From assembly GCA_944388165.1 (NCBI GenBank), contig CALXHS010000088.1:1-40175 (forward strand): a stretch of DNA of 40,175 nucleotides, written 5' to 3'. The first letter of the stretch is position 1, and each line of letters opens with the position of its first letter. Under the pieces are notes generated by a model. That model made no database searches and had not been told where the DNA came from. It saw only the letters and a program-made list of their open reading frames with translations. This DNA comes from an uncultured Gemmiger sp. (lineage in GTDB: Bacteria > Bacillota > Clostridia > Oscillospirales > Ruminococcaceae). The position numbers and the translations under genes are program-made. Positions 422 to 11,895 of this stretch are shown piece after piece.

Positions 422-450
422 TTGACAGAGAAACAGGGGCGTGGTAGAAT
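422..450 (+). promoter_or_regulatory. Sigma-A promoter of the pyrCFKD operon
   Basis: A consensus -35 TTGACA (422-427), a 17-base spacer and a -10 TAGAAT (445-450). Transcription should begin near 457, giving a leader of about 210 bases before pyrC. An inverted repeat, ACCGCCCC (383-390) with GGGGCGGT (404-411), lies just upstream of the -35 box. Confidence 0.8.
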
Positions 451-507
451 AATAAAAATTATGCAAAACCCCCGCAAAGATTGTCAAAAAGAAGGAGGCA
501 CCGTCAC

Positions 508-597
508 ATGCAGTTCCGCTTGGCCCGAATGTCCGGTGTTCTGATTTTTGACGGTGCCGTGTTTTTTCCTGACACCGCGGATGGGCGGCTTTTTTGA
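508..597 (+). CDS. Putative pyr leader peptide, 29 aa
   Basis: This short ORF has a textbook AAGGAGG (492-498) nine bases before its ATG, in the leader between the pyr promoter and pyrC. It is rich in phenylalanine (residues 3, 14, 19, 20, 29) because it runs through three T-tracts (545-549, 562-567, 590-595). Its TGA stop (595-597) overlaps the first base of the attenuator stem. This matches the logic of the E. coli pyrBI leader peptide, where a ribosome close behind RNA polymerase stops the terminator from folding. A 10-bp inverted repeat, GGCACCGTCA (497-506) with TGACGGTGCC (549-558), could hide the end of its ribosome site. Expression is inferred, not shown. Confidence 0.55.
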   Translation: MQFRLARMSGVLIFDGAVFFPDTADGRLF

Positions 598-627
598 CTT
601 TTCCTCACCGGGGAAAAGTTTTTTTTT
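597..627 (+). terminator. Attenuator terminator in the pyrC leader
   Basis: ACTTTTCC (597-604) pairs with GGAAAAGT (612-619) across a 7-base loop, and a run of nine T (619-627) follows. The hairpin lies after the promoter and before pyrC, so it must be bypassed for the operon to be read. The left arm begins at the last base of the leader-peptide stop codon, so a ribosome at that stop would cover it. Confidence 0.7.
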
Positions 628-669
628 GCCCAAACGCGGTTAAAACATACCTGAAAGGAAGGCTGTATC

Positions 670-1860
670 ATGCTGATCCGCAATGCCAAGGACGACTCCG
701 GCCGCCGCTGTGATGTCTGGGTCAAAGACGGCAAGATCGCTGCCATTGGCGCCGGTCTGCCCGCCGACCTGGACACCGAGGTCATCGACGCTGCCGGGCT
801 GACCATCCTGCCCTCTTTCATCGATACCCACTGCCACTGGCGCACCCCCGGCCTGGAATATAAAGAGGATATCGCCACCGGTTCCGCCGCGGCTGCCGCG
901 GGCGGGTACACCTTCGTGAACCTGATGCCCAACACCAAGCCGGTGTGCTCCGACGCCGACACCGTCTACGCGGTGCAGAACAAGGCCAGGGAGATCGGCC
1001 TGTGCGACGCCAACCAGACCGTGTCCATCACCAAGGACTTTGACGGCAAGACCATCGACCATCTCCTCACTCTGCCGGAGAACATCCGCTTCACCACCGA
1101 GGACGGCAACGGCGTCATGCACAACGCCGTCATGGCCCGGGTCTTTGCCATCGCCACCGAGCGCGGCCTCACCGTCATGTCCCACGCCGAGGACCGGGAG
1201 ATCAGCCCCTGGGACTACCGCCTGGCCGAAAACATCGAAACGGTGCGCAACTGCCACCTGGCTGAATACTACGGCACCCGGCTGCACATGTGCCATGTTT
1301 CCACCGCTGAGTCTGTGGATGCGGTGCGCCAGAGCCGCCGCAAGGGGGCCCGGGTCTCCTGCGAAGTCACCCCCCATCACCTGTGGTTCGACGACAAGCG
1401 CCTGCAGTACCGGGTGAACCCGCCCATCCGCACCGACAACGATGTGCGGGCCCTGGTGCAGGCCATCAAGGACGGCACCGTCACCTGCATCGGCACCGAC
1501 CACGCCCCCCACACCGCCGAGGAAAAGGAGAAGGGCGCCGCCGGTATGGTGGGGCTGGAAACCGCCTTTGCCGCCTGCTACACCAAGCTCTGCCGCATGG
1601 AGGGCCTGCCCCTGGAACACCTGAGCTTCCTCATGAGCGCCGGTCCCGCCGCCGTTATGGGCCTGGCCGACCGCAAGGGGCTGCTGTGCCCCGGCTATGA
1701 CGCTGACCTGGTGCTGGTGGACATCGATCATATGTATACCGTGCACGCCGACAAGCTGCACAGCAAGAGCAAGAATACCCCCTTCGACGGGGAAAATCTG
1801 TACGGCCGCATCAAGATGACCATCAAGGGCGGCAAGACCACCTATCAGAGCGAAGAGTAA
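670..1860 (+). CDS. pyrC: Dihydroorotase
   Basis: PyrC closes N-carbamoyl-aspartate to dihydroorotate, the third step of pyrimidine synthesis, in the cytosol. The 396-residue protein is a class I amidohydrolase. The metal-binding DTHCHWRTPG segment gives His54, His56 and Arg58. Also seen are HVSTAES, EVTPHH and GTDHAPH, with the likely catalytic Asp277. It is somewhat shorter than the roughly 425 residues of Bacillus PyrC. The ATG at 670 follows AAGGAAGG. It is the first gene of the pyrCFKD unit and is read only if the leader attenuator is passed. The next gene, pyrF, follows after 14 bases. Confidence 0.95.
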   Translation: MLIRNAKDDSGRRCDVWVKDGKIAAIGAGLPADLDTEVIDAAGLTILPSFIDTHCHWRTPGLEYKEDIATGSAAAAAGGYTFVNLMPNTKPVCSDADTVYAVQNKAREIGLCDANQTVSITKDFDGKTIDHLLTLPENIRFTTEDGNGVMHNAVMARVFAIATERGLTVMSHAEDREISPWDYRLAENIETVRNCHLAEYYGTRLHMCHVSTAESVDAVRQSRRKGARVSCEVTPHHLWFDDKRLQYRVNPPIRTDNDVRALVQAIKDGTVTCIGTDHAPHTAEEKEKGAAGMVGLETAFAACYTKLCRMEGLPLEHLSFLMSAGPAAVMGLADRKGLLCPGYDADLVLVDIDHMYTVHADKLHSKSKNTPFDGENLYGRIKMTIKGGKTTYQSEE

Positions 1861-1874
1861 GGAGGCAATTTCCA

Positions 1875-2741
1875 ATGACCAACATGGACAAACTGTATGC
1901 CAGCGTGGCCGCCAACGGCCCTGTGTGCGTGGGTCTGGACACCGAACTGAGCTACCTGCCCGAATCCGCTGTGGATTCCACCAAGACGGCAGGGGAGAAC
2001 GTGGTGGCCTTCAACCGCGCCCTGATCGACGCCACCAAGTCCGCCGCGGGCTGCTACAAGGTGCAGATCGCCTACTATGAATCCCTGGGCATGGACGGCA
2101 TGCGCGCCTATGCCGAGACCCTGCGCATGGTGCGGGAGACCGGTCTGCCGGTCATTGCCGACATCAAGCGCGGCGACATCGCCAAGACAGCCGAGATGTA
2201 CGCCAAGGCCCACTTCTCCGGTGACTTTGAAGCCGACCTCATCACCCTGGCCCCCTACATGGGCCTGGATTCCATCAGCCCCTACCTGCCCTACTGCAAG
2301 GACCAGGGCAAGGGCGTGTTCGTGCTGTGCCGCACCTCCAACCCCGGCGCCAAGGACTTTGAGTACCAGAAACTGGCCGACGGCCGCCACGTCTACGACC
2401 TGGTGGGCGACAGCCTCTCCGCTCTGGGCCAGGATTATATCGGCGAGAGCGGCTACACCAGCATCGGCCTGGTCATCGGCGGCACCCACACCGAGGAGGC
2501 TTCCGCCATCCGCGCCGCCTACCAGAACACCTTCTTCCTGATCCCCGGCTACGGCGCCCAGGGCGGCAAGGCCGCCGACATCGCCCGTTACCTGAACAAG
2601 GGCAACGGCGGCGTGGTCAACTCCAGCCGCGGCATCCTGCTGGCCTGGAAGAAGCAGCCCGGCGTGGATTATGCCGAGGCCGCCTATAATGAATGCGTCC
2701 GCATGAGGGAGGATATCCAGAGTGAGTGCGATAAACTGTAA
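1875..2741 (+). CDS. pyrF: Orotidine 5'-phosphate decarboxylase (long, type 2 form)
   Basis: PyrF decarboxylates OMP to UMP, the last step of the pathway. The 288-residue length fits the longer bacterial and mycobacterial-type family rather than the 230-residue E. coli form. The catalytic ADIKRGDI motif supplies Asp96, Lys98 and Asp101 of the Asp-Lys-Asp network. Near the C-terminus, PGYGAQGG and NSSRGILLAW form the phosphate-binding region. AAGGAGG lies just before the ATG. The 3' end overlaps pyrK by 20 bases, so the two are probably translationally coupled. Confidence 0.95.
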   Translation: MTNMDKLYASVAANGPVCVGLDTELSYLPESAVDSTKTAGENVVAFNRALIDATKSAAGCYKVQIAYYESLGMDGMRAYAETLRMVRETGLPVIADIKRGDIAKTAEMYAKAHFSGDFEADLITLAPYMGLDSISPYLPYCKDQGKGVFVLCRTSNPGAKDFEYQKLADGRHVYDLVGDSLSALGQDYIGESGYTSIGLVIGGTHTEEASAIRAAYQNTFFLIPGYGAQGGKAADIARYLNKGNGGVVNSSRGILLAWKKQPGVDYAEAAYNECVRMREDIQSECDKL

Positions 2742-3507
2742 GGTCAGTGTGCTGGCACAGGAAACGGTGGCGCCGGACATCCGCCGCCTGACCGTGTCCT
2801 GGGAGGACCAGCGCCCGGAATTCATGCCCCACGCCGGCCAGTTCTATATGCTGCGCTGCTGGGCGGCGGACGAAGCACCCGTGCTCTCCCGCCCCATCAG
2901 CGTCCATGATTTTGATGCCGCTTCCCACACCCTGACCTTCCTGTATCAGGTCAAGGGCCAGGGCACCGAGAAGCTGGCAGCCCTGAAGGCGGGGGACACC
3001 CTGTCCCTCACCGGCCCCTGCGGTAACGGCTTCAACGTGGCCGAAGCCGCCAGGTTCGGCACCGGCCGAGTGGCCGTGGTGGGCGGCGGCATCGGCACCG
3101 CGCCCCTGCTGCTGCTCTGCAAGGAGCTGGCCGCCGCCGGTGCCAAGCCGGAACTGTACGCCGGCTTCCGGGATGAACCCTACGGGCTGGAGGAATTCCT
3201 GCCCTACTGTGCCGCCGTCAGCGTGGCCACCGATTCCGGCGCCGTGGGCTACCATGGCCTGGTCACCGGCATCCTGCACCCTGAAAACTTCGACCTGGTG
3301 CTGGCCTGCGGTCCCAACGTGATGATGAAGGGCGTGTACAAGCTCTGCGCCGAGCACAACACCCCCTGCATCGTCAGCCTGGAACGCAAGATGGCCTGCG
3401 GTCTGGGCGCCTGCCTGGGCTGCACCTGCATGACCAAGGTGGGACCGCGCACCGTCTGCAAGGACGGCCCGGTCTTCGCTGCCGAGGAGGTGTTCGACCT
3501 TGACTAA
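2722..3507 (+). CDS. pyrK: Dihydroorotate dehydrogenase electron-transfer subunit
   Basis: PyrK passes electrons from dihydroorotate, oxidised on PyrD, to NAD+ through FAD and a [2Fe-2S] cluster. The 261 residues show the FAD-binding RPISVHD motif, a glycine-rich nucleotide site (VVGGGIGTAPLL), and four cluster cysteines at about 226, 231, 234 and 246 (CGLGACLGCTC and TVCKDGP). The GTG start at 2722 lies inside pyrF and has GGGAGG at a normal distance. The stop overlaps the start of pyrD by 8 bases. The genes in order pyrK-pyrD are typical of Firmicutes with class 1B enzymes. Confidence 0.95.
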   Translation: MSAINCKVSVLAQETVAPDIRRLTVSWEDQRPEFMPHAGQFYMLRCWAADEAPVLSRPISVHDFDAASHTLTFLYQVKGQGTEKLAALKAGDTLSLTGPCGNGFNVAEAARFGTGRVAVVGGGIGTAPLLLLCKELAAAGAKPELYAGFRDEPYGLEEFLPYCAAVSVATDSGAVGYHGLVTGILHPENFDLVLACGPNVMMKGVYKLCAEHNTPCIVSLERKMACGLGACLGCTCMTKVGPRTVCKDGPVFAAEEVFDLD

Positions 3508-4417
3508 CGTAGATCTGCATGTGAACCTGCTGGGCAAGCGTCTGGCCAGCCCGGTCATCGCCGCTTCCGGCACCTTCGGCTTCGGCCCCGAATACGCCGA
3601 CATCCAGGATCTGCGGGTGCTGGGCGGCATCTCCGGCAAGGGCCTGACCCTCAACGGCCAGCCCGGCAACCCCGGCGAGCGCCTGTACGAGACCCCCTCC
3701 GGCCTGATGAACTCCATCGGCCTGCAGAACCCCGGCGTGGCCCACTTCATCGAGCACGAACTGCCCGCCATGAAGACCCTGGGCACCACCGTCTGGGCCA
3801 ACCTGGGCGGCCACACCATCGAGGAGAACGTGGAAGGCGTGCGGATGCTCTGCGAAGCGGGCATCGACTTCCTGGAACTGAACATCAGCTGCCCCAACGT
3901 CAAGCAGGGTGGTCTGGCCTTCGGTATCCGGGCCGCGGACGCTTCCGAAGTGGTTTCGGCGGTGCGCAAGGTCTGCACCGTACCCCTGGTGGTCAAGCTC
4001 AGCCCCCAGGCCGAGAACCTGACCGAGATGTGCAAGGCAGTGGAAGCCGCCGGTGCCGACGGCATCAGCCTGTGCAACACCTTCCAGGCCTGTGCCATTG
4101 ACCTGGAACGCCGCAAGCCGGTGTTCGCCAACACCTTCGCGGGCCTGTCCGGCCCGGCGGTGCGTCCCATTGCCCTGCGCATGGTCTGGCAGGCGGTGGG
4201 CGCCGTGAACATCCCGGTCATCGGGCTGGGCGGCATCAGCACCGGTAAGGACGCCCTGGAATTCATCATGGCCGGCGCCGCCGCCGTGCAGGTGGGCACC
4301 GCCAACTTCTTGGACCCCATGGCCTGCACCCGCATCGTGAACGAAATGGCGGACTGGATGCAGGCCCACGGCGTGCACAGCCTGGACGAGATCCGCGGCT
4401 GTGCCCGTGCAAACTGA
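3500..4417 (+). CDS. pyrD: Dihydroorotate dehydrogenase, class 1B catalytic subunit
   Basis: PyrD oxidises dihydroorotate to orotate on FMN. The NISCPNVKQGG motif carries Cys131, the catalytic base that marks class 1 (soluble) enzymes, and the preceding pyrK marks class 1B, an NAD-dependent PyrD2K2 tetramer. Other family signatures are SGKGLT and the C-terminal FMN-phosphate motifs IGLGGIS and GAAAVQVGTA. The 305-residue length is normal. The start is a TTG at 3500 with GAGGAGG nine bases upstream, overlapping the pyrK stop. No clear terminator follows; a new promoter lies 27 bases after the stop. Confidence 0.95.
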   Translation: MTNVDLHVNLLGKRLASPVIAASGTFGFGPEYADIQDLRVLGGISGKGLTLNGQPGNPGERLYETPSGLMNSIGLQNPGVAHFIEHELPAMKTLGTTVWANLGGHTIEENVEGVRMLCEAGIDFLELNISCPNVKQGGLAFGIRAADASEVVSAVRKVCTVPLVVKLSPQAENLTEMCKAVEAAGADGISLCNTFQACAIDLERRKPVFANTFAGLSGPAVRPIALRMVWQAVGAVNIPVIGLGGISTGKDALEFIMAGAAAVQVGTANFLDPMACTRIVNEMADWMQAHGVHSLDEIRGCARAN

Positions 4418-4472: not shown

Positions 4473-4555
4473 AAGTCAAAGCGTGGAAAAGTGCGGGTCT
4501 TCGCCCGCGTCAAAGGATAACAGGTATACGGAAACAATTTATGGAGGGTATAACG

Positions 4556-5152
4556 ATGGCAAGAGATGCAAAAGAAATTCTGAAAGAATGCGGCGCTTTT
4601 CTGGAAGGTCACTTCCTGCTGTCCAGCGGCCGCCACTCCGGCGCTTACTGCCAGATGGCCTATCTGCAGCAGTACCCGGACAAGTGCGCCGAAGTCATGG
4701 CTCCCGTGGCCGAAAAGCTGAAGGAGATGGACGTGGATCTGTTCGTGGGTCCCGCTATGGGCGGCATTGTCTATGCCTATGAGCTGGGCCGTCAGTGCGG
4801 CAAGCCCGCCATTTTCACCGAGCGTGTGGACAACGTCATGACCCTCAAGCGCTTCCAGATCAAGCCGGGCATGCGCTGCATCATCGCTGAGGACGTGGTC
4901 ACCACCGGCGTTTCCAGCCTGGAGACCAAGCGCGTCATCGAAGAAGCCGGCGGCATCTGCCTGGGCATCGTCTGCGTGGTGGACCGCACCACCGCCGCCG
5001 CCCCCTCTCCCATTCCCATCCTGGCCAGCGCCCTGAAGCTGGAACTGCCCAACTATGCGCCGGACGAATGCCCCATCTGCAAGGAGGGCAAGCTGCCCCT
5101 GGTGCACCTGGGCAGCCGTAAGATGCAGGAAAAGGCAAAGCAGAAGCTGTGA
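4556..5152 (+). CDS. pyrE: Orotate phosphoribosyltransferase
   Basis: PyrE joins orotate and PRPP to give OMP. The PRPP-binding motif is clear in IIAEDVVTTGVSS. The C-terminal CPICKEGKLPLVHLGS segment is typical of the clostridial and thermophile-type PyrE. An in-frame ATG at 4541 is rejected because GGAGGG (4543-4548) lies inside that extension at the right distance for the ATG at 4556, giving 198 residues. It is the first gene of the second pyr unit. Its end is followed after 20 bases by carA. Confidence 0.93.
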   Translation: MARDAKEILKECGAFLEGHFLLSSGRHSGAYCQMAYLQQYPDKCAEVMAPVAEKLKEMDVDLFVGPAMGGIVYAYELGRQCGKPAIFTERVDNVMTLKRFQIKPGMRCIIAEDVVTTGVSSLETKRVIEEAGGICLGIVCVVDRTTAAAPSPIPILASALKLELPNYAPDECPICKEGKLPLVHLGSRKMQEKAKQKL

Positions 5153-5172
5153 TTTTTGAAGCGAGGCAAACT

Positions 5173-6303
5173 ATGCAGGCATATCTGATTTTGGCAAACG
5201 GGACGGTGCTCACCGGCAAAAGCATCGGCGCCGAAGGCACCACCGTGGGCGAGGTCGTGTTCGCCACCGGCATGGTCGGCTTTCAGGAGACCCTGACCGA
5301 CCCCAGCTACTACGGCCAGATCATCACCCAGACTTACCCGCTGATCGGCAACTACGGCATGAACAGCGAAGATATGGAAAGCACCCGCATCTGGGCCCGG
5401 GGCTATATCGTGCGCGAAGCGTGCACCGCCCCCAGCAACTTCCGCTGCGAGATGACCCTGGACGCTTTCCTGAAAAAGAACAACATCATCGGCATTGAGG
5501 GCATCGACACCCGCAGCCTGACCCGCACTCTGCGGGAGAGCGGCGTCATGAACGGCGCCATCACCACCGAGTTCGACCCCAACGCCGAACCGGAAAAGAT
5601 GGCCGCGCTCATGCCCGCCATCCAGGGCTACGCCGTCACCGAGGCGGTGAAGTCCACCACCTGCGCCGCCCCCATGACCTTTGAGCCCACCGCAGAACCC
5701 AAGGACGGCGGTTCGGTGCTGCACGTGGCCCTGCTGGACCTGGGCTGCAAGAACAACATCGTGCGCTGCCTGCAGAAGCGCGGCTGCCGCGTCACCGTTC
5801 TGCCTGGCACCACCAGCCCCGAAGAACTGGCGGCCCTCAAGCCGGACGGCCTCATGCTGTCCAACGGCCCCGGCGACCCGGCGGAAAACACCGAGATCAT
5901 CGCCAACATCCGCAAGATGCTGGACACCGGCATCCCGGCTTTCGGCATCTGCCTGGGCCACCAGCTCACCGCGCTGGCTGCCGGCGCCAAGACCAGCAAG
6001 ATGAAGTACGGCCACCGCGGCGCCAACCAGCCGGTCACCGACTTTGCCACCGGCCGCACCTTCATCACCAGCCAGAACCACGGCTACGCCGTTCTGGGCG
6101 GCACCCTGCCCGCCGGTGTGGGCCGGGTGAGCCACGTCAACGCCAACGACAAGACCTGCGAAGGCGTGGAGTATATGCAGTGGAACTGCTTCACCGTCCA
6201 GTTCCATCCCGAGGCCAGCGGCGGCCCCCGGGATACCGAATTCCTGTTCGACCGTTTCATCCAGAACATCCGCCGCATCAATCGCGTTAAAGGAGGGCTG
6301 TAA
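5173..6303 (+). CDS. carA: Carbamoyl-phosphate synthase small (glutaminase) subunit
   Basis: CarA hydrolyses glutamine and feeds ammonia to CarB. The 376-residue protein has the N-terminal CarA domain (VTG-like MVGFQETLTDPSY) and a C-terminal class I glutamine amidotransferase domain. The nucleophile is Cys260 in FGICLGHQ; His345 and Glu347 in FHPEAS complete the triad. The ATG at 5173 is chosen because the family begins just there; an upstream in-frame GTG at 5149 has no ribosome site and overlaps pyrE. Its stop is two bases before carB, so the subunits are made together. Confidence 0.95.
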   Translation: MQAYLILANGTVLTGKSIGAEGTTVGEVVFATGMVGFQETLTDPSYYGQIITQTYPLIGNYGMNSEDMESTRIWARGYIVREACTAPSNFRCEMTLDAFLKKNNIIGIEGIDTRSLTRTLRESGVMNGAITTEFDPNAEPEKMAALMPAIQGYAVTEAVKSTTCAAPMTFEPTAEPKDGGSVLHVALLDLGCKNNIVRCLQKRGCRVTVLPGTTSPEELAALKPDGLMLSNGPGDPAENTEIIANIRKMLDTGIPAFGICLGHQLTALAAGAKTSKMKYGHRGANQPVTDFATGRTFITSQNHGYAVLGGTLPAGVGRVSHVNANDKTCEGVEYMQWNCFTVQFHPEASGGPRDTEFLFDRFIQNIRRINRVKGGL

Positions 6304-6305
6304 GA

Positions 6306-9300
6306 ATGCCGAAAGACCCGAGAATCAAGAAGGTAATGGTCATCGGCTCCGGCCCCATCATCATCGGCCAGGCCGCTGAGTTCGACTATTCCGGCACCCA
6401 GGCCTGCCGCGCTCTGAAGAGCGAGGGCATCGAGACGGTGCTGGTCAACTCCAACCCGGCCACCATCATGACCGATCCCGACATTGCCGACCATGTGTAT
6501 ATCGAGCCCCTCACCGCCGAGGTGGTGGAGCGCATCATCGAGAAGGAAAAGCCCGACGCCATCCTGCCCAACCTGGGCGGCCAGATGGGCCTGAACCTCT
6601 CCATGGAACTGGCCCGCAGCGGTTTCCTGGACCGTTCCGGCGTGCGCCTGCTGGCCTGCCGCCCGGACACCATCGACCGCGCCGAGGACCGTCAGCTCTT
6701 CAAGGATACCATGGAGAAGCTGCACCAGCCCATCGTGCCTTCCAAGGTGGTGGAAGAGCTGGAGGACGCGGTGGAATACGCCGCCACCATCGGCTACCCC
6801 GTCATCGTCCGCCCCGCCTTCACCATGGGCGGTACCGGCGGCGGTATCTGCGAGGACGAGGAAAAGCTGCGTGAGATCGCCACCAACGGCCTGCGCCTGT
6901 CTCCCATCACCCAGATCCTGGTGGAAAAGTGCATCGCCGGCTGGAAGGAAATCGAATACGAGGTCATGCGTGACTCCAAAGGCAACGTGATCACCGTCTG
7001 CAACATGGAGAACCTGGACCCCGTGGGCGTGCACACCGGCGACTCCATCGTCGTGGCCCCCAGCCAGACCCTGTCCGACAAGGAATACCAGATGCTGCGC
7101 ACCGCCGCTCTGGACATCATCACCGAGCTGGGCATCGAAGGCGGCTGCAACTGCCAGTTCGCCCTCAACCCGGACAGCTTCGAGTACGCGGTCATCGAGG
7201 TCAACCCCCGTGTGTCCCGTTCCTCCGCTCTGGCTTCCAAGGCCACCGGTTACCCCATCGCCAAGGTGGCCACCAAGATCGCCCTGGGCTACACCCTGGA
7301 CGAGATCACCAACGACGTTACCGGCGAGACCTGCGCCTGCTTCGAGCCTGCCCTGGACTACGTGGTGGTCAAGTACCCCAAGTGGCCTTTCGACAAGTTC
7401 GTCTATGCCGACAAGTCTCTGGGCACCCAGATGATGGCCACCGGCGAAGTCATGGCCATCGGCAACAATTTCGAACATGCCATGATGAAGGCTGTGTCCT
7501 CCATCGAACTGGGCATGGACACCCTGACCCTGCCGGATTTCGAGACCCTCTCCACCGAGGAAATCATCGAACACCTGCATGTGCAGGATTCCGAGCGCGC
7601 TTTCTGCGTCTACGAAGCCCTCAAGCGGGGCGTGGACCACAAGGTCATCTATGACATCACCAAGATCGACTGGTGGTTCCTGGACAAGATGCAGCACCTG
7701 GCCGACCTGGAAATGGGCCTGAAGAACGGCGAACTCACCCGGGAGAAGTATCTGGAAGCCAAGAAATACGGCTTCCTGGACAAGACCATCCTGCGTCTGT
7801 CCGGCGCTTCCGAACTGCCGGTGAAGGACCTGCATGCCGGGTTCAAGATGGTCGATACCTGCGCCGCGGAATTTGCCGCCCGCACTCCCTACTTCTACTC
7901 CACCTACGACCAGGACAACGAGGCCGCCGGCTTCATTGAGGAGCACAGCGACAAGTCCCGCAAGAAGGTGCTGGTCTTCGGTTCCGGCCCCATCCGCATC
8001 GGCCAGGGCATCGAATTCGACTACTGCTCGGTGCACGCGGTGTGGACGCTGAAAAAGCACGGCTGCGAGGCCATCCTCATCAACAACAACCCCGAGACCG
8101 TTTCCACCGACTTCGACACCGGCGACCGTCTGTACTTTGACCCGCTGAACCCCGAAAGCGTGGACAATGTCATCGCCACCGAAAAGCCCGACGCCTGCCT
8201 GGTGCAGTTCGGCGGCCAGACCGCCATCAAGCTGGCCAACCACATGGACGAGATCGGCCTGCCCATCCTGGGCACCCCGGCCGACGCCATCGACGAGGCC
8301 GAGGACCGTGAACGCTTCGACGAACTGCTGGAGCGCTGCGGCATCCCCCGTCCCGAGGGCCGCACCGTCTACACCCTGGACGAAGCCCTCAAGGCTGCCG
8401 AGGAAGTGGGCTATCCCGTTCTGATGCGTCCTTCCTACGTGCTGGGCGGCCAGAACATGATCGTGGCTTACAACTCCGCCGACGTTGTGGAGTATATGGG
8501 CGTCATCACCGCCCACGTGGATATGTCCCACCCTGTGCTGATGGACAAGTACATCTACGGCACCGAATGTGAAGTGGACGCCATCTGCGACGGCGAGGAT
8601 TACCTGGTTCCCGGCATCATGGAACAGATCGAGCGCACCGGCGTGCATTCCGGCGACTCCATCTGCGTCTATCCGCCCTACGACTTCCCCCAGAGCGTCA
8701 TCGACACCCTGGTGGATTACACCGGCCGCTTTGCCCGTGAACTGAAGGTCGTGGGTCTGGTCAACGTGCAGTACGCCGTGCAGGACGGCAAGGTTTACGT
8801 CATCGAGGTGAACCCCCGTTCCTCCCGTACCGTGCCCTATATCAGCAAGGTCACCGGCGTTCCCATGGTGGACCTGGCCGTGCGCTGCACTCTGGGCGAA
8901 AAGCTCAAGGATATGGGCTACGGCACCGGCCTGTGGCGCGGCGGCAAGAGCCCCTACTATGCGGTCAAGGTGCCCGTGTACAGCTTCCTGAAGCTGCACG
9001 GCGTGGACACTATGCTGGGCCCCGAAATGAAGTCCACCGGCGAAGTGCTGGGCATTGCCCCCACCTTCCACGAGGCCATGATGAAGGGCCTGGTGGGCGC
9101 CGGTTACCAGTTCAAGACCCCCGGCCCCGGTTCCTGTGTCATCATCTCGGTGAAGGACGCCGACAAGGCCGAAGCTGCCGAACTGGCCTGGAAGCTGCAT
9201 GACTATGGCTACAAGATCTACGGCACTCCCGGCACCGCCCGCTACCTGAACAGTGAAATGATCCCCTGCAGCGTGGTGCGTCAGGTCAGCGGCGAGCGTC

Positions 9301-9545
9301 CCAACGTCATCGATCTGCTGGAAAGCGGCCTGGTGGATTACATCATCTCCACCAGCCCCCATGGCCGTGACCCCCCCCGTGATTCGGTAAAGTTCCGCCG
9401 CAAGGCCACCGAGCTTTCCATCCCCTGCATCACCGCCCTGGACACCGCCCGCGTGCTGGTGGATGCCCTGCGCGGCGATCATGACATCAGCAAGATGGAA
9501 CTGGTGGACGTGGCTACCCTGCATCGTGACCCGAAGGGAAAATAA
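6306..9545 (+). CDS. carB: Carbamoyl-phosphate synthase large subunit
   Basis: CarB makes carbamoyl phosphate from bicarbonate, ammonia and two ATP. The 1079 residues show the usual internal duplication: two pre-ATP-grasp and ATP-grasp halves, beginning at VIGSGPIIIGQAAEFDYSG and again near residue 555 at VFGSGPIRIGQGIEFDY. Each half has the ATP-grasp EVNPR motif. The C-terminal MGS-like allosteric domain (about residue 940 on) is where UMP and ornithine act in E. coli. AAGGAGGG precedes the ATG. Clustering with the pyr genes suggests the enzyme serves pyrimidines; whether it also serves arginine cannot be told here. Confidence 0.97.
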   Translation: MPKDPRIKKVMVIGSGPIIIGQAAEFDYSGTQACRALKSEGIETVLVNSNPATIMTDPDIADHVYIEPLTAEVVERIIEKEKPDAILPNLGGQMGLNLSMELARSGFLDRSGVRLLACRPDTIDRAEDRQLFKDTMEKLHQPIVPSKVVEELEDAVEYAATIGYPVIVRPAFTMGGTGGGICEDEEKLREIATNGLRLSPITQILVEKCIAGWKEIEYEVMRDSKGNVITVCNMENLDPVGVHTGDSIVVAPSQTLSDKEYQMLRTAALDIITELGIEGGCNCQFALNPDSFEYAVIEVNPRVSRSSALASKATGYPIAKVATKIALGYTLDEITNDVTGETCACFEPALDYVVVKYPKWPFDKFVYADKSLGTQMMATGEVMAIGNNFEHAMMKAVSSIELGMDTLTLPDFETLSTEEIIEHLHVQDSERAFCVYEALKRGVDHKVIYDITKIDWWFLDKMQHLADLEMGLKNGELTREKYLEAKKYGFLDKTILRLSGASELPVKDLHAGFKMVDTCAAEFAARTPYFYSTYDQDNEAAGFIEEHSDKSRKKVLVFGSGPIRIGQGIEFDYCSVHAVWTLKKHGCEAILINNNPETVSTDFDTGDRLYFDPLNPESVDNVIATEKPDACLVQFGGQTAIKLANHMDEIGLPILGTPADAIDEAEDRERFDELLERCGIPRPEGRTVYTLDEALKAAEEVGYPVLMRPSYVLGGQNMIVAYNSADVVEYMGVITAHVDMSHPVLMDKYIYGTECEVDAICDGEDYLVPGIMEQIERTGVHSGDSICVYPPYDFPQSVIDTLVDYTGRFARELKVVGLVNVQYAVQDGKVYVIEVNPRSSRTVPYISKVTGVPMVDLAVRCTLGEKLKDMGYGTGLWRGGKSPYYAVKVPVYSFLKLHGVDTMLGPEMKSTGEVLGIAPTFHEAMMKGLVGAGYQFKTPGPGSCVIISVKDADKAEAAELAWKLHDYGYKIYGTPGTARYLNSEMIPCSVVRQVSGERPNVIDLLESGLVDYIISTSPHGRDPPRDSVKFRRKATELSIPCITALDTARVLVDALRGDHDISKMELVDVATLHRDPKGK

Positions 9546-11800: not shown

Positions 11801-11895
11801 AGCAGAGTAGGGGCCCGCGCGTTAAGTGCCTGACCAACGGGGAGTTGTGGCAGGACGAAGCCCAGTGCGCGGTGCGGGTCCCGCATCCCACTGCT
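11801..11895 (+). ncRNA. Tetrahydrofolate (THF) riboswitch
   Basis: The outer helix AGCAG (11801-11805) pairs with CTGCT (11891-11895). Inside are conserved blocks of the Firmicute THF aptamer: GAGTAG near the 5' end, CGCGTTAAGTG, AACGGGGAGTTGT, GACGAAG, GTGCGCGGTG and GCATCCC near the 3' end. They occur in the same order as in the Eubacterium siraeum aptamer I know. It lies between the promoter and the folate transporter gene, the usual place for this riboswitch. A terminator follows directly, so folate binding probably stops transcription. Confidence 0.85.

Follow-up and report, generated by a model that had tools for sequence, protein, structure and literature searches.

Attenuation by a translated leader that senses UTP is a textbook mechanism of E. 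coli, whereas Firmicutes are taught as users of PyrR. In the pyrBI model, low UTP slows RNA polymerase in the U-rich leader and the ribosome arrives in time. E. coli pyrE lies behind rph/orfE, a full gene whose translation ends a few bases short of the terminator, with U-rich DNA upstream. According to excerpts of the papers cited here and below, attenuation of both pyrBI and pyrE was UTP-sensitive, and pyrBI was also subject to UTP-dependent reiterative transcription (PMC4491880). Ribosome coupling across the pyrL leader was required to prevent the terminator (PMC5021804). In E. coli, termination fell from about 90% to less than 10% when a stop codon was moved to a point 5 bp ahead of a terminator; stops 5-6 bases ahead nearly abolished it, provided that the upstream gene was translated, and the effect was lost beyond about 27 nt (PMC4824070). 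In the B. subtilis tlrB (yxjB) leader, RNA polymerase pausing let leader translation begin before a hairpin shut the ribosome-binding site (RBS), and a ribosome near the leader stop codon hindered the terminator (PMC6851288).

We analyzed a stretch of 40,175 nucleotides (the window) from an uncultured Gemmiger sp., in which a leader adjoins the gene that opens a pyrimidine biosynthesis operon. The window opens with a CxxC zinc-ribbon gene, and the leader sits between this gene and pyrC. The features are as follows.

422-450, plus strand: promoter, with TTGACA at 422-427, a 17-base spacer, TAGAAT at 445-450 and TG before the -10 element
484-506, plus strand: 5' arm of the predicted RBS-closing fold (488-493 pairs with 562-567, and 497-506 with 549-558)
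492-498, plus strand: RBS of the leader ORF, AAGGAGG, recognized by sequence
508-597, plus strand: putative leader ORF of 29 codons, whose stop codon TGA (595-597) shares the first base of the terminator stem
549-572, plus strand: 3' arm of the predicted RBS-closing fold, holding the T-tract 562-567
590-595, plus strand: T-tract entering the stop codon, its final T being a stop codon base
596-627, plus strand: intrinsic terminator (the attenuator), with a stem at 596-620 and a T-run to 627
670-1860, plus strand: pyrC, dihydroorotase, the first structural gene (TIGR00857)
1875-2741, plus strand: pyrF, orotidine-5'-phosphate decarboxylase (TIGR02127)
2722-3507, plus strand: pyrK, dihydroorotate dehydrogenase electron transfer subunit (NF000798)
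3500-4417, plus strand: pyrD, dihydroorotate dehydrogenase (NF005574)
4541-5152, plus strand: pyrE, orotate phosphoribosyltransferase (TIGR01367)
5149-6303, plus strand: carA, carbamoyl-phosphate synthase small subunit (TIGR01368)
6306-9545, plus strand: carB, carbamoyl-phosphate synthase large subunit (NF003671)

The original prediction had described a promoter, a perfect AAGGAGG, a 29-codon ORF running through T-tracts and a terminator starting in the stop codon, and all of these parts were located at the coordinates it gave. Its pyrCFKD operon was confirmed but proved incomplete, with pyrE, carA and carB following in the same direction, and its Bacillus context did not apply, the host being a relative of Gemmiger and not a Bacillus. 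The nearest named relatives by pyrC were Gemmiger formicilis An812 and uncultured Gemmiger, at 93% identity. The pyr promoter matched 11 of 12 consensus positions and predicted a transcription start near 457. The putative leader ORF encodes MQFRLARMSGVLIFDGAVFFPDTADGRLF followed by the stop codon, and its T-tracts lie at 545-549, 562-567 and 590-595. In fold predictions, the terminator stem reached -12.2 kcal/mol (z -3.0), and the entire leader was more stable than 200 of 200 shuffles (z -3.8). The 10-bp inverted repeat noticed earlier (497-506 with 549-558) was present and embedded in a longer predicted fold at 484-572 (-32.6 kcal/mol, z -3.2), in which the T-tract 562-567 pairs with the bases that run into the Shine-Dalgarno (SD) sequence. 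Two other elements were noted in the window. The minus strand carries a promoter-like TTGACA-18-CATAAT (458-487, 11 of 12 positions) that is directed away from pyrC and overlaps the start region of the pyr promoter, and a THF riboswitch (11801-11895, 84.5 bits) lies near a gene for the S component of a folate ECF transporter.

In our reading, this leader is a translation-coupled attenuator that controls the pyr operon in response to UTP or the pyrimidine pool without the help of a protein, and we give this reading a probability of about 0.75. Whether translation of the leader ORF keeps pace with polymerase probably decides the switching of the pyr genes, with the ribosome expected to block the hairpin and UTP expected to be the signal. 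The parts, their conserved geometry, selection on the T-tracts, a specific pairing between RBS and ORF, and the absence of PyrR were established by sequence comparison and are presented in turn.

The order of parts is that of E. coli pyrBI (K-12 sequence): promoter, RBS, short U-rich ORF (pyrL), intrinsic terminator, first pyr gene. In detail the two differ. E. coli pyrL has 44 codons and ends past the terminator, 3 bases before pyrB, whereas the ORF here stops, in most leaders, at the stem base; two related loci (L227 and L228) are pyrL-like, their ORFs passing the terminator and ending 23 and 18 bases before pyrB. The predicted start here, AATTATGC, contains no run of three T, unlike that of pyrBI, the start site being a prediction only. 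Unlike E. coli pyrE, with its full upstream gene, the locus has a dedicated short leader (16-41 codons among the leaders that passed the test below). Bacillus-type PyrR attenuation acts on the same operon with the same early termination when pyrimidines are plentiful, but it requires PyrR and its RNA site, and neither was found here. That the leader works like pyrBI- or pyrE-type attenuation is well supported. We make no claim to strict membership of the class, since UTP dependence and a need for translation are presumed here and the reiterative start of pyrBI was not seen at the predicted start.

To follow the leader among relatives, we gathered pyrC loci from three sources: the genus (33 of 35 genomes matched), named records (80 loci kept) and a sample of the family (194 of 247 genomes matched). 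The pyr leader was inspected in 48 of the 247 family genomes, namely the 38 whose pyrC matched best and 10 of the remainder. It was present in 34 of the 38, from 17 genera (34 of all 48 inspected), and in 0 of the 10 more distant genomes. The proposed comparison of leaders from relatives thus returned a conserved ORF and terminator, in these 34 of 38 close genomes. The 34 carriers include L131, in which the stop codon lies 7 nt before the stem, and L227 and L228 with their ORFs through the terminator; not counted as carriers were L224 and L226 (another early hairpin), L229 (none in the stretch) and L141 (contig end). The leader was kept in records named Gemmiger, Faecalibacterium, Ruthenibacterium and further genera. 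In genera with pyrB ahead of pyrC it precedes pyrB instead, and for this reason we assign it to the operon; judged by position, the leader is tied to the operon's first gene and not to pyrC. The pyrB of the window's own genome lies on another contig (L218, G000:C105 near 20138), and no such leader was seen in the stretch inspected there; a GC-rich inverted repeat, GCCGCCGG...CCGGCGGC, was observed in its leader.

The placement of the ORF was examined with a mechanical test, applied alike to every terminator in the fetched DNA, which required an SD-preceded ORF of 15-50 codons whose end fell between -6 and +20 of the stem and whose whole open frame did not exceed 120. A stricter first version (38 of 65 versus 2 of 136) had missed leaders with a weak SD or a long upstream frame, and was relaxed equally for both sets. 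An RBS-preceded ORF ending at the hairpin, where a ribosome would cover the terminator, was found in 57 of 64 distinct pyr-stem leaders and at 10 of 136 other terminators, the leaders being mutually related, so that these and similar counts are non-independent trials. An eleventh control match (L134) was itself a pyrB leader with a different stem and was removed. The leaders were picked by their stem motif and the leader alignment is likewise anchored on the stem, which makes the test uninformative on stem conservation. The stop codon fell at +1 to +3 of the hairpin base in 53 of the 64 leaders versus 0 of the 136 controls; the other 4 of the 57 passing leaders ended within the hairpin. Among the seven misses, five (L003, L011, L018, L023 and L027) did show the ORF once the open-frame limit was dropped, and two failed outright, L067 stopping 7 nt early and L228 running through. 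Leader peptides (16-41 codons in the 57 leaders) diverged in sequence, and 245 of 358 differing codons in 39 similar leader pairs were nonsynonymous. The position of the stop codon at the hairpin was constant while the peptides varied freely. An accidental ORF, with the hairpin being an ordinary weak terminator or the 3' end of an upstream transcript, gains something from the abundance of short ORFs and from the 10 control terminators that passed. Set against the rate among pyr leaders, a site between a consensus promoter and pyrC, and its move to pyrB where pyrB comes first, we regard it as scarcely credible.

The stem itself was searched separately. Of 35 Gemmiger genomes, 29 contained exactly one copy of the strict stem-plus-T motif, always 20-200 bases before pyrC; of the six without it, two lack a pyrC match and four have a variant (L020, L024, L026 and L029). 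In a sample of the class, the exact motif was found in 1 of 391 genomes, our own; this search misses diverged stems and included few family members, so that its result constrains the sequence rather than the mechanism. When the T-run was not required, a looser stem pattern matched in 81 of 247 family genomes, and among PyrR-bearing genomes with such a match and a listed pyrC, the two shared a contig only in G126 and G162, about 30 and 59 kb apart. Some genera have different stems (GGCTTTCC..GGAAAGCT; AACATTTTCC..GGAAAATGTT), with the ORF still ending at or inside the hairpin.

These searches bear on a switch in which an undescribed regulator, protein or ligand, reads either the recurrent CTTTTCC...GGAAAAG stem or the GCCC that follows the T-run. 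At nearly all close loci, a hairpin search that left the stem sequence unspecified recovered CTTTTCC in the terminator nearest to pyrC, and GCCC directly followed the T-run in 37 of 57 leaders versus 0 of 26 control hairpin-T sites from a Gemmiger sample, both as such a switch would have it. A U-rich 5' arm is, however, also expected if the U-rich DNA itself senses, and loci L220-L223 and L228 keep the geometry of ORF and hairpin with other stems. No Rfam family reached threshold in the leader, where a relaxed threshold gave four matches, all well under their gathering scores, and PyrR was absent. We consider such a switch quite unlikely. In the window the GCCC lies within 619-631, and E. coli pyrL shares T8-GCCC.

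The absence of a PyrR site, claimed in the original prediction, held when the check was run: PyrR-binding RNA (RF00515) had no match in the window, in the own genome, or in the leader at a relaxed threshold. Two of the three results named in the original prediction as refuting were looked for, and neither appeared: ORF and terminator were conserved in relatives, and no PyrR element was found. The pyrBI-type reading of the layout gained support. PyrR protein over cut-off was absent from the own genome, whose assembly is 94% complete and gave two weak sub-cutoff matches, and from all 35 Gemmiger genomes. Across the family, PyrR protein (NF003549) was over cut-off in 107 of 247 genomes, distributed as 0 of the 38 close-pyrC genomes versus 107 of the 209 others; none of the 34 leader carriers had it. 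In the PyrR genera compared, pyrR lies just before pyrC, at a distance from the pyrC match of 73 bases in G056 and 110 bases in G072. PyrR is equally absent from the four close-pyrC genomes that showed no leader (three inspected, one at a contig end). The absence of PyrR tracks the clade rather than the leader. It fits replacement of PyrR by the leader, but a single loss could also explain it, because those four genomes lack PyrR as well. A Fisher test of leader against PyrR (1e-9) was not relied on, as it counts 199 uninspected genomes as non-carriers and assumes independence.

We then asked whether the T-tracts were kept as nucleotides or as codons. T-runs of at least four covered 9.1 bases per ORF in 55 leaders, versus 3.7 after synonymous recoding by pyrC usage (maximum of 300 trials, 4.8), and five T in a row occurred in 40 of 55 leaders versus 15.9 expected. 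At third positions of non-Phe codons, T reached 0.29 versus 0.09 in pyrC and was higher in 54 of 55 leaders. The last base ahead of the stop codon was T in 93% of 57 leaders, and the same held for the base preceding it. By these comparisons the T-tracts are under selection at the nucleotide level, and the leaders have U-rich tracts before the terminator that are selected as nucleotides. Selection for T on the coding strand is what a UTP sensor would require, and it argues against a sensor of Phe only.

Attenuation by an amino acid or a nascent peptide, in which charged Phe-tRNA is sensed or the peptide stalls the ribosome, has the leader composition on its side: Phe made up 15.6% of leader residues versus 2.6% in pyrC, with at least one in each of 55 leaders, and Phe-Pro occurred in 30 of 57 peptides. 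Third-position T was, however, raised in non-Phe codons too, and TTT was preferred over TTC (159:62 in leaders versus 258:297 in pyrC), which indicates a bias for T and not for Phe. Phe-Pro was frequent within the genus (20 of 26) but not outside it (10 of 31); its recurrence may be a by-product of a TTTCC nucleotide motif, or a peptide effect. No competing antiterminator hairpin appeared in the one leader fold searched for it, and no metabolic connection between Phe and the pyr genes is known to us. A Phe or peptide signal is very unlikely in our judgment. TTNTTT, a NusG pause motif, was present in 40 of 55 leaders versus 15.2 after recoding, and was not used as support; excerpts of the tlrB paper do not mention it (PMC6851288).

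The original prediction had suggested that the inverted repeat over the leader RBS may add a second control, and comparison among genera lent support to this. For 57 leaders, duplexes were computed between the RBS region (20 bases plus the start codon) and the central part of the ORF. The mean energy was -21.3 kcal/mol for own pairs versus -17.4 for swapped pairs. With one leader per group in 18 groups, four of which are single named contigs without an assigned genus that may duplicate genera already present, own pairing exceeded swapped pairing at a median p of 0.00025, the floor of the test. After correction for composition with codon-shuffled ORFs, the excess was -3.9 for own versus -1.0 for swapped pairs (genus-swap p 0.0005 median, 0.0010 worst). 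Three control pairings were null: codons 2-9 against the later ORF (p 0.58), the RBS against the region after the terminator (p 0.24), and the part of the 5' UTR upstream of the RBS against the ORF (p 0.61). Two earlier forms of the analysis were replaced. A simple-shuffle duplex test (22 of 55 leaders at z < -2) could be explained by composition and gave way to the genus-swap tests, and 8-mer clustering (9 groups, p 0.0005 median, 0.013 worst) put most leaders into one group and gave way to genus groups.

The predicted openness of the SD agreed with the duplex tests. Its unpaired probability was 0.16 in native leaders versus 0.31 after codon-order shuffling, and it was below the shuffles in 45 of 57 leaders (Wilcoxon over 18 groups, p 0.0004), with 3 of the 18 groups going slightly the opposite way. 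When folding was predicted for growing transcripts, the SD closed as downstream RNA was added in most of nine plotted leaders, clearly in L025, L060, L119, L126 and L130, and moderately in the window, L013 and L062, with little change in L002. A hairpin that closes the leader RBS after downstream RNA is made, as in tlrB, is thus predicted from the fold and its conservation. On these sequence comparisons, the leader RBS pairs specifically with the U-rich middle of the ORF across genera. To our knowledge, such closing pairing goes beyond what is known for E. coli.

The same pairing might still be a pause hairpin or a by-product and not a gate, with UTP attenuation proceeding by classical close coupling only. 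Some pairing is expected between a purine-rich RBS and a U-rich ORF, and in the minimum-energy fold of the E. coli pyrL leader (L236) the RBS, CGGGAGGA, is likewise paired, its partner being UCUUCCCG of the U-rich stretch, although the pairing did not beat shuffles (z -0.1). The pairing here, by contrast with the non-significant pairing of pyrL, exceeded both shuffled and genus-swapped ORFs after composition correction, and the three controls were null. Classical coupling alone is a possibility that we take seriously, though we would bet against it.

The concern of the original prediction, that such a mechanism would require close coupling of transcription and translation, still stands. According to excerpts of one study, short distances from stop codon to terminator are a sign that polymerase outruns ribosomes in the organism (PMC7858274). 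The median distance was 13.5 nt in one Gemmiger genome (n=30, 400 kb) versus 33 nt in E. coli (n=14, 200 kb; p 0.04), and the stop codon overlapped the stem in 0 of the 30 Gemmiger gene terminators, unlike in the leader. Rho protein over the curated cut-off was found in 0 of 5 near-complete genomes of the clade (G000, G026, G008, G203 and G054); the weak matches in this search are presumably F1-ATPase subunits. Purine bias, 0.004 in Gemmiger versus 0.029 in E. coli, was set aside as a proxy for coupling: it is uninformative because Rho over cut-off was not found in any of the five genomes, and weak bias also occurs in Rho-less Bacilli, as excerpts of a further study report (PMC13323073). If Gemmiger is uncoupled, attenuation needs a local device that holds polymerase back, and the U-rich segment that closes the RBS is a candidate for such a polymerase-delaying device.

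In the mechanism that we propose, polymerase would depart from the promoter at 422-450, and a ribosome may load at the RBS (492-498). At high UTP, polymerase would pass quickly through the U-rich stretches, and 549-572 would fold back and shut the RBS. With the RBS shut, no ribosome would follow, the terminator at 596-627 would form, and transcription would stop before pyrC. At low UTP, polymerase would be slow in the U-rich stretches, by UTP-dependent pausing, and a ribosome would load before the RBS closes. This ribosome would reach the stop codon at 595-597 and sit over the 5' arm of the stem (596-620), and with that arm covered, transcription would read through into pyrCFKDE-carAB. The T-tract 562-567 is the presumed UTP-sensitive slow site, and the closing arm of the window is, in this model, likely to be slow site and door of the RBS at once. 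The U-rich stretch would then be sensor and timer together, slow at low UTP and carrying the 3' arm that closes its own RBS, which would convert UTP level into a window for ribosome loading. We hold this timing role tentatively, at a little short of even odds.

Such timing resembles that of tlrB, with differences in signal and reach. The tlrB leader responds to ribosomes stalled by tylosin at an RYR motif, and its hairpin masks the RBS of the downstream gene as well, as described in excerpts (PMC6851288). Here no RYR-like motif is shared (R/K-x-R/K in 15 of 57 peptides), and the fold covers only the leader RBS. Relative to pyrBI and pyrE, the new elements are another phylum, a lineage without PyrR, a stop codon usually at the base of the stem, and the RBS-closing arm. 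No report matching the leader was found in the literature covered, which lay outside most subscription journals; excerpts of a 26-genome survey of uORF motifs (PMC8632094) and of a survey of premature terminators (PMC2965389) mention none for pyrC. Such a leader occurs in at least 17 genera of one Firmicute family, in a lineage without PyrR that includes Faecalibacterium and Gemmiger of the human gut. The RBS-closing fold suggests a route to ribosome-dependent attenuation without global coupling. If the timer is true, this form of attenuation would be usable even where polymerase normally outruns ribosomes, and it would explain RNA-only pyrimidine control in a lineage without PyrR (and without Rho, in the five genomes checked).

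In related genera, a different arrangement was observed just before pyrB at L224 and L226 (in G149 and G201). No leader ORF was seen at either locus. Soon after the promoter, both have a different early hairpin, with a purine-rich arm facing TTCCTTTTnTTTTG, which is possibly another PyrR-free control of pyr genes.
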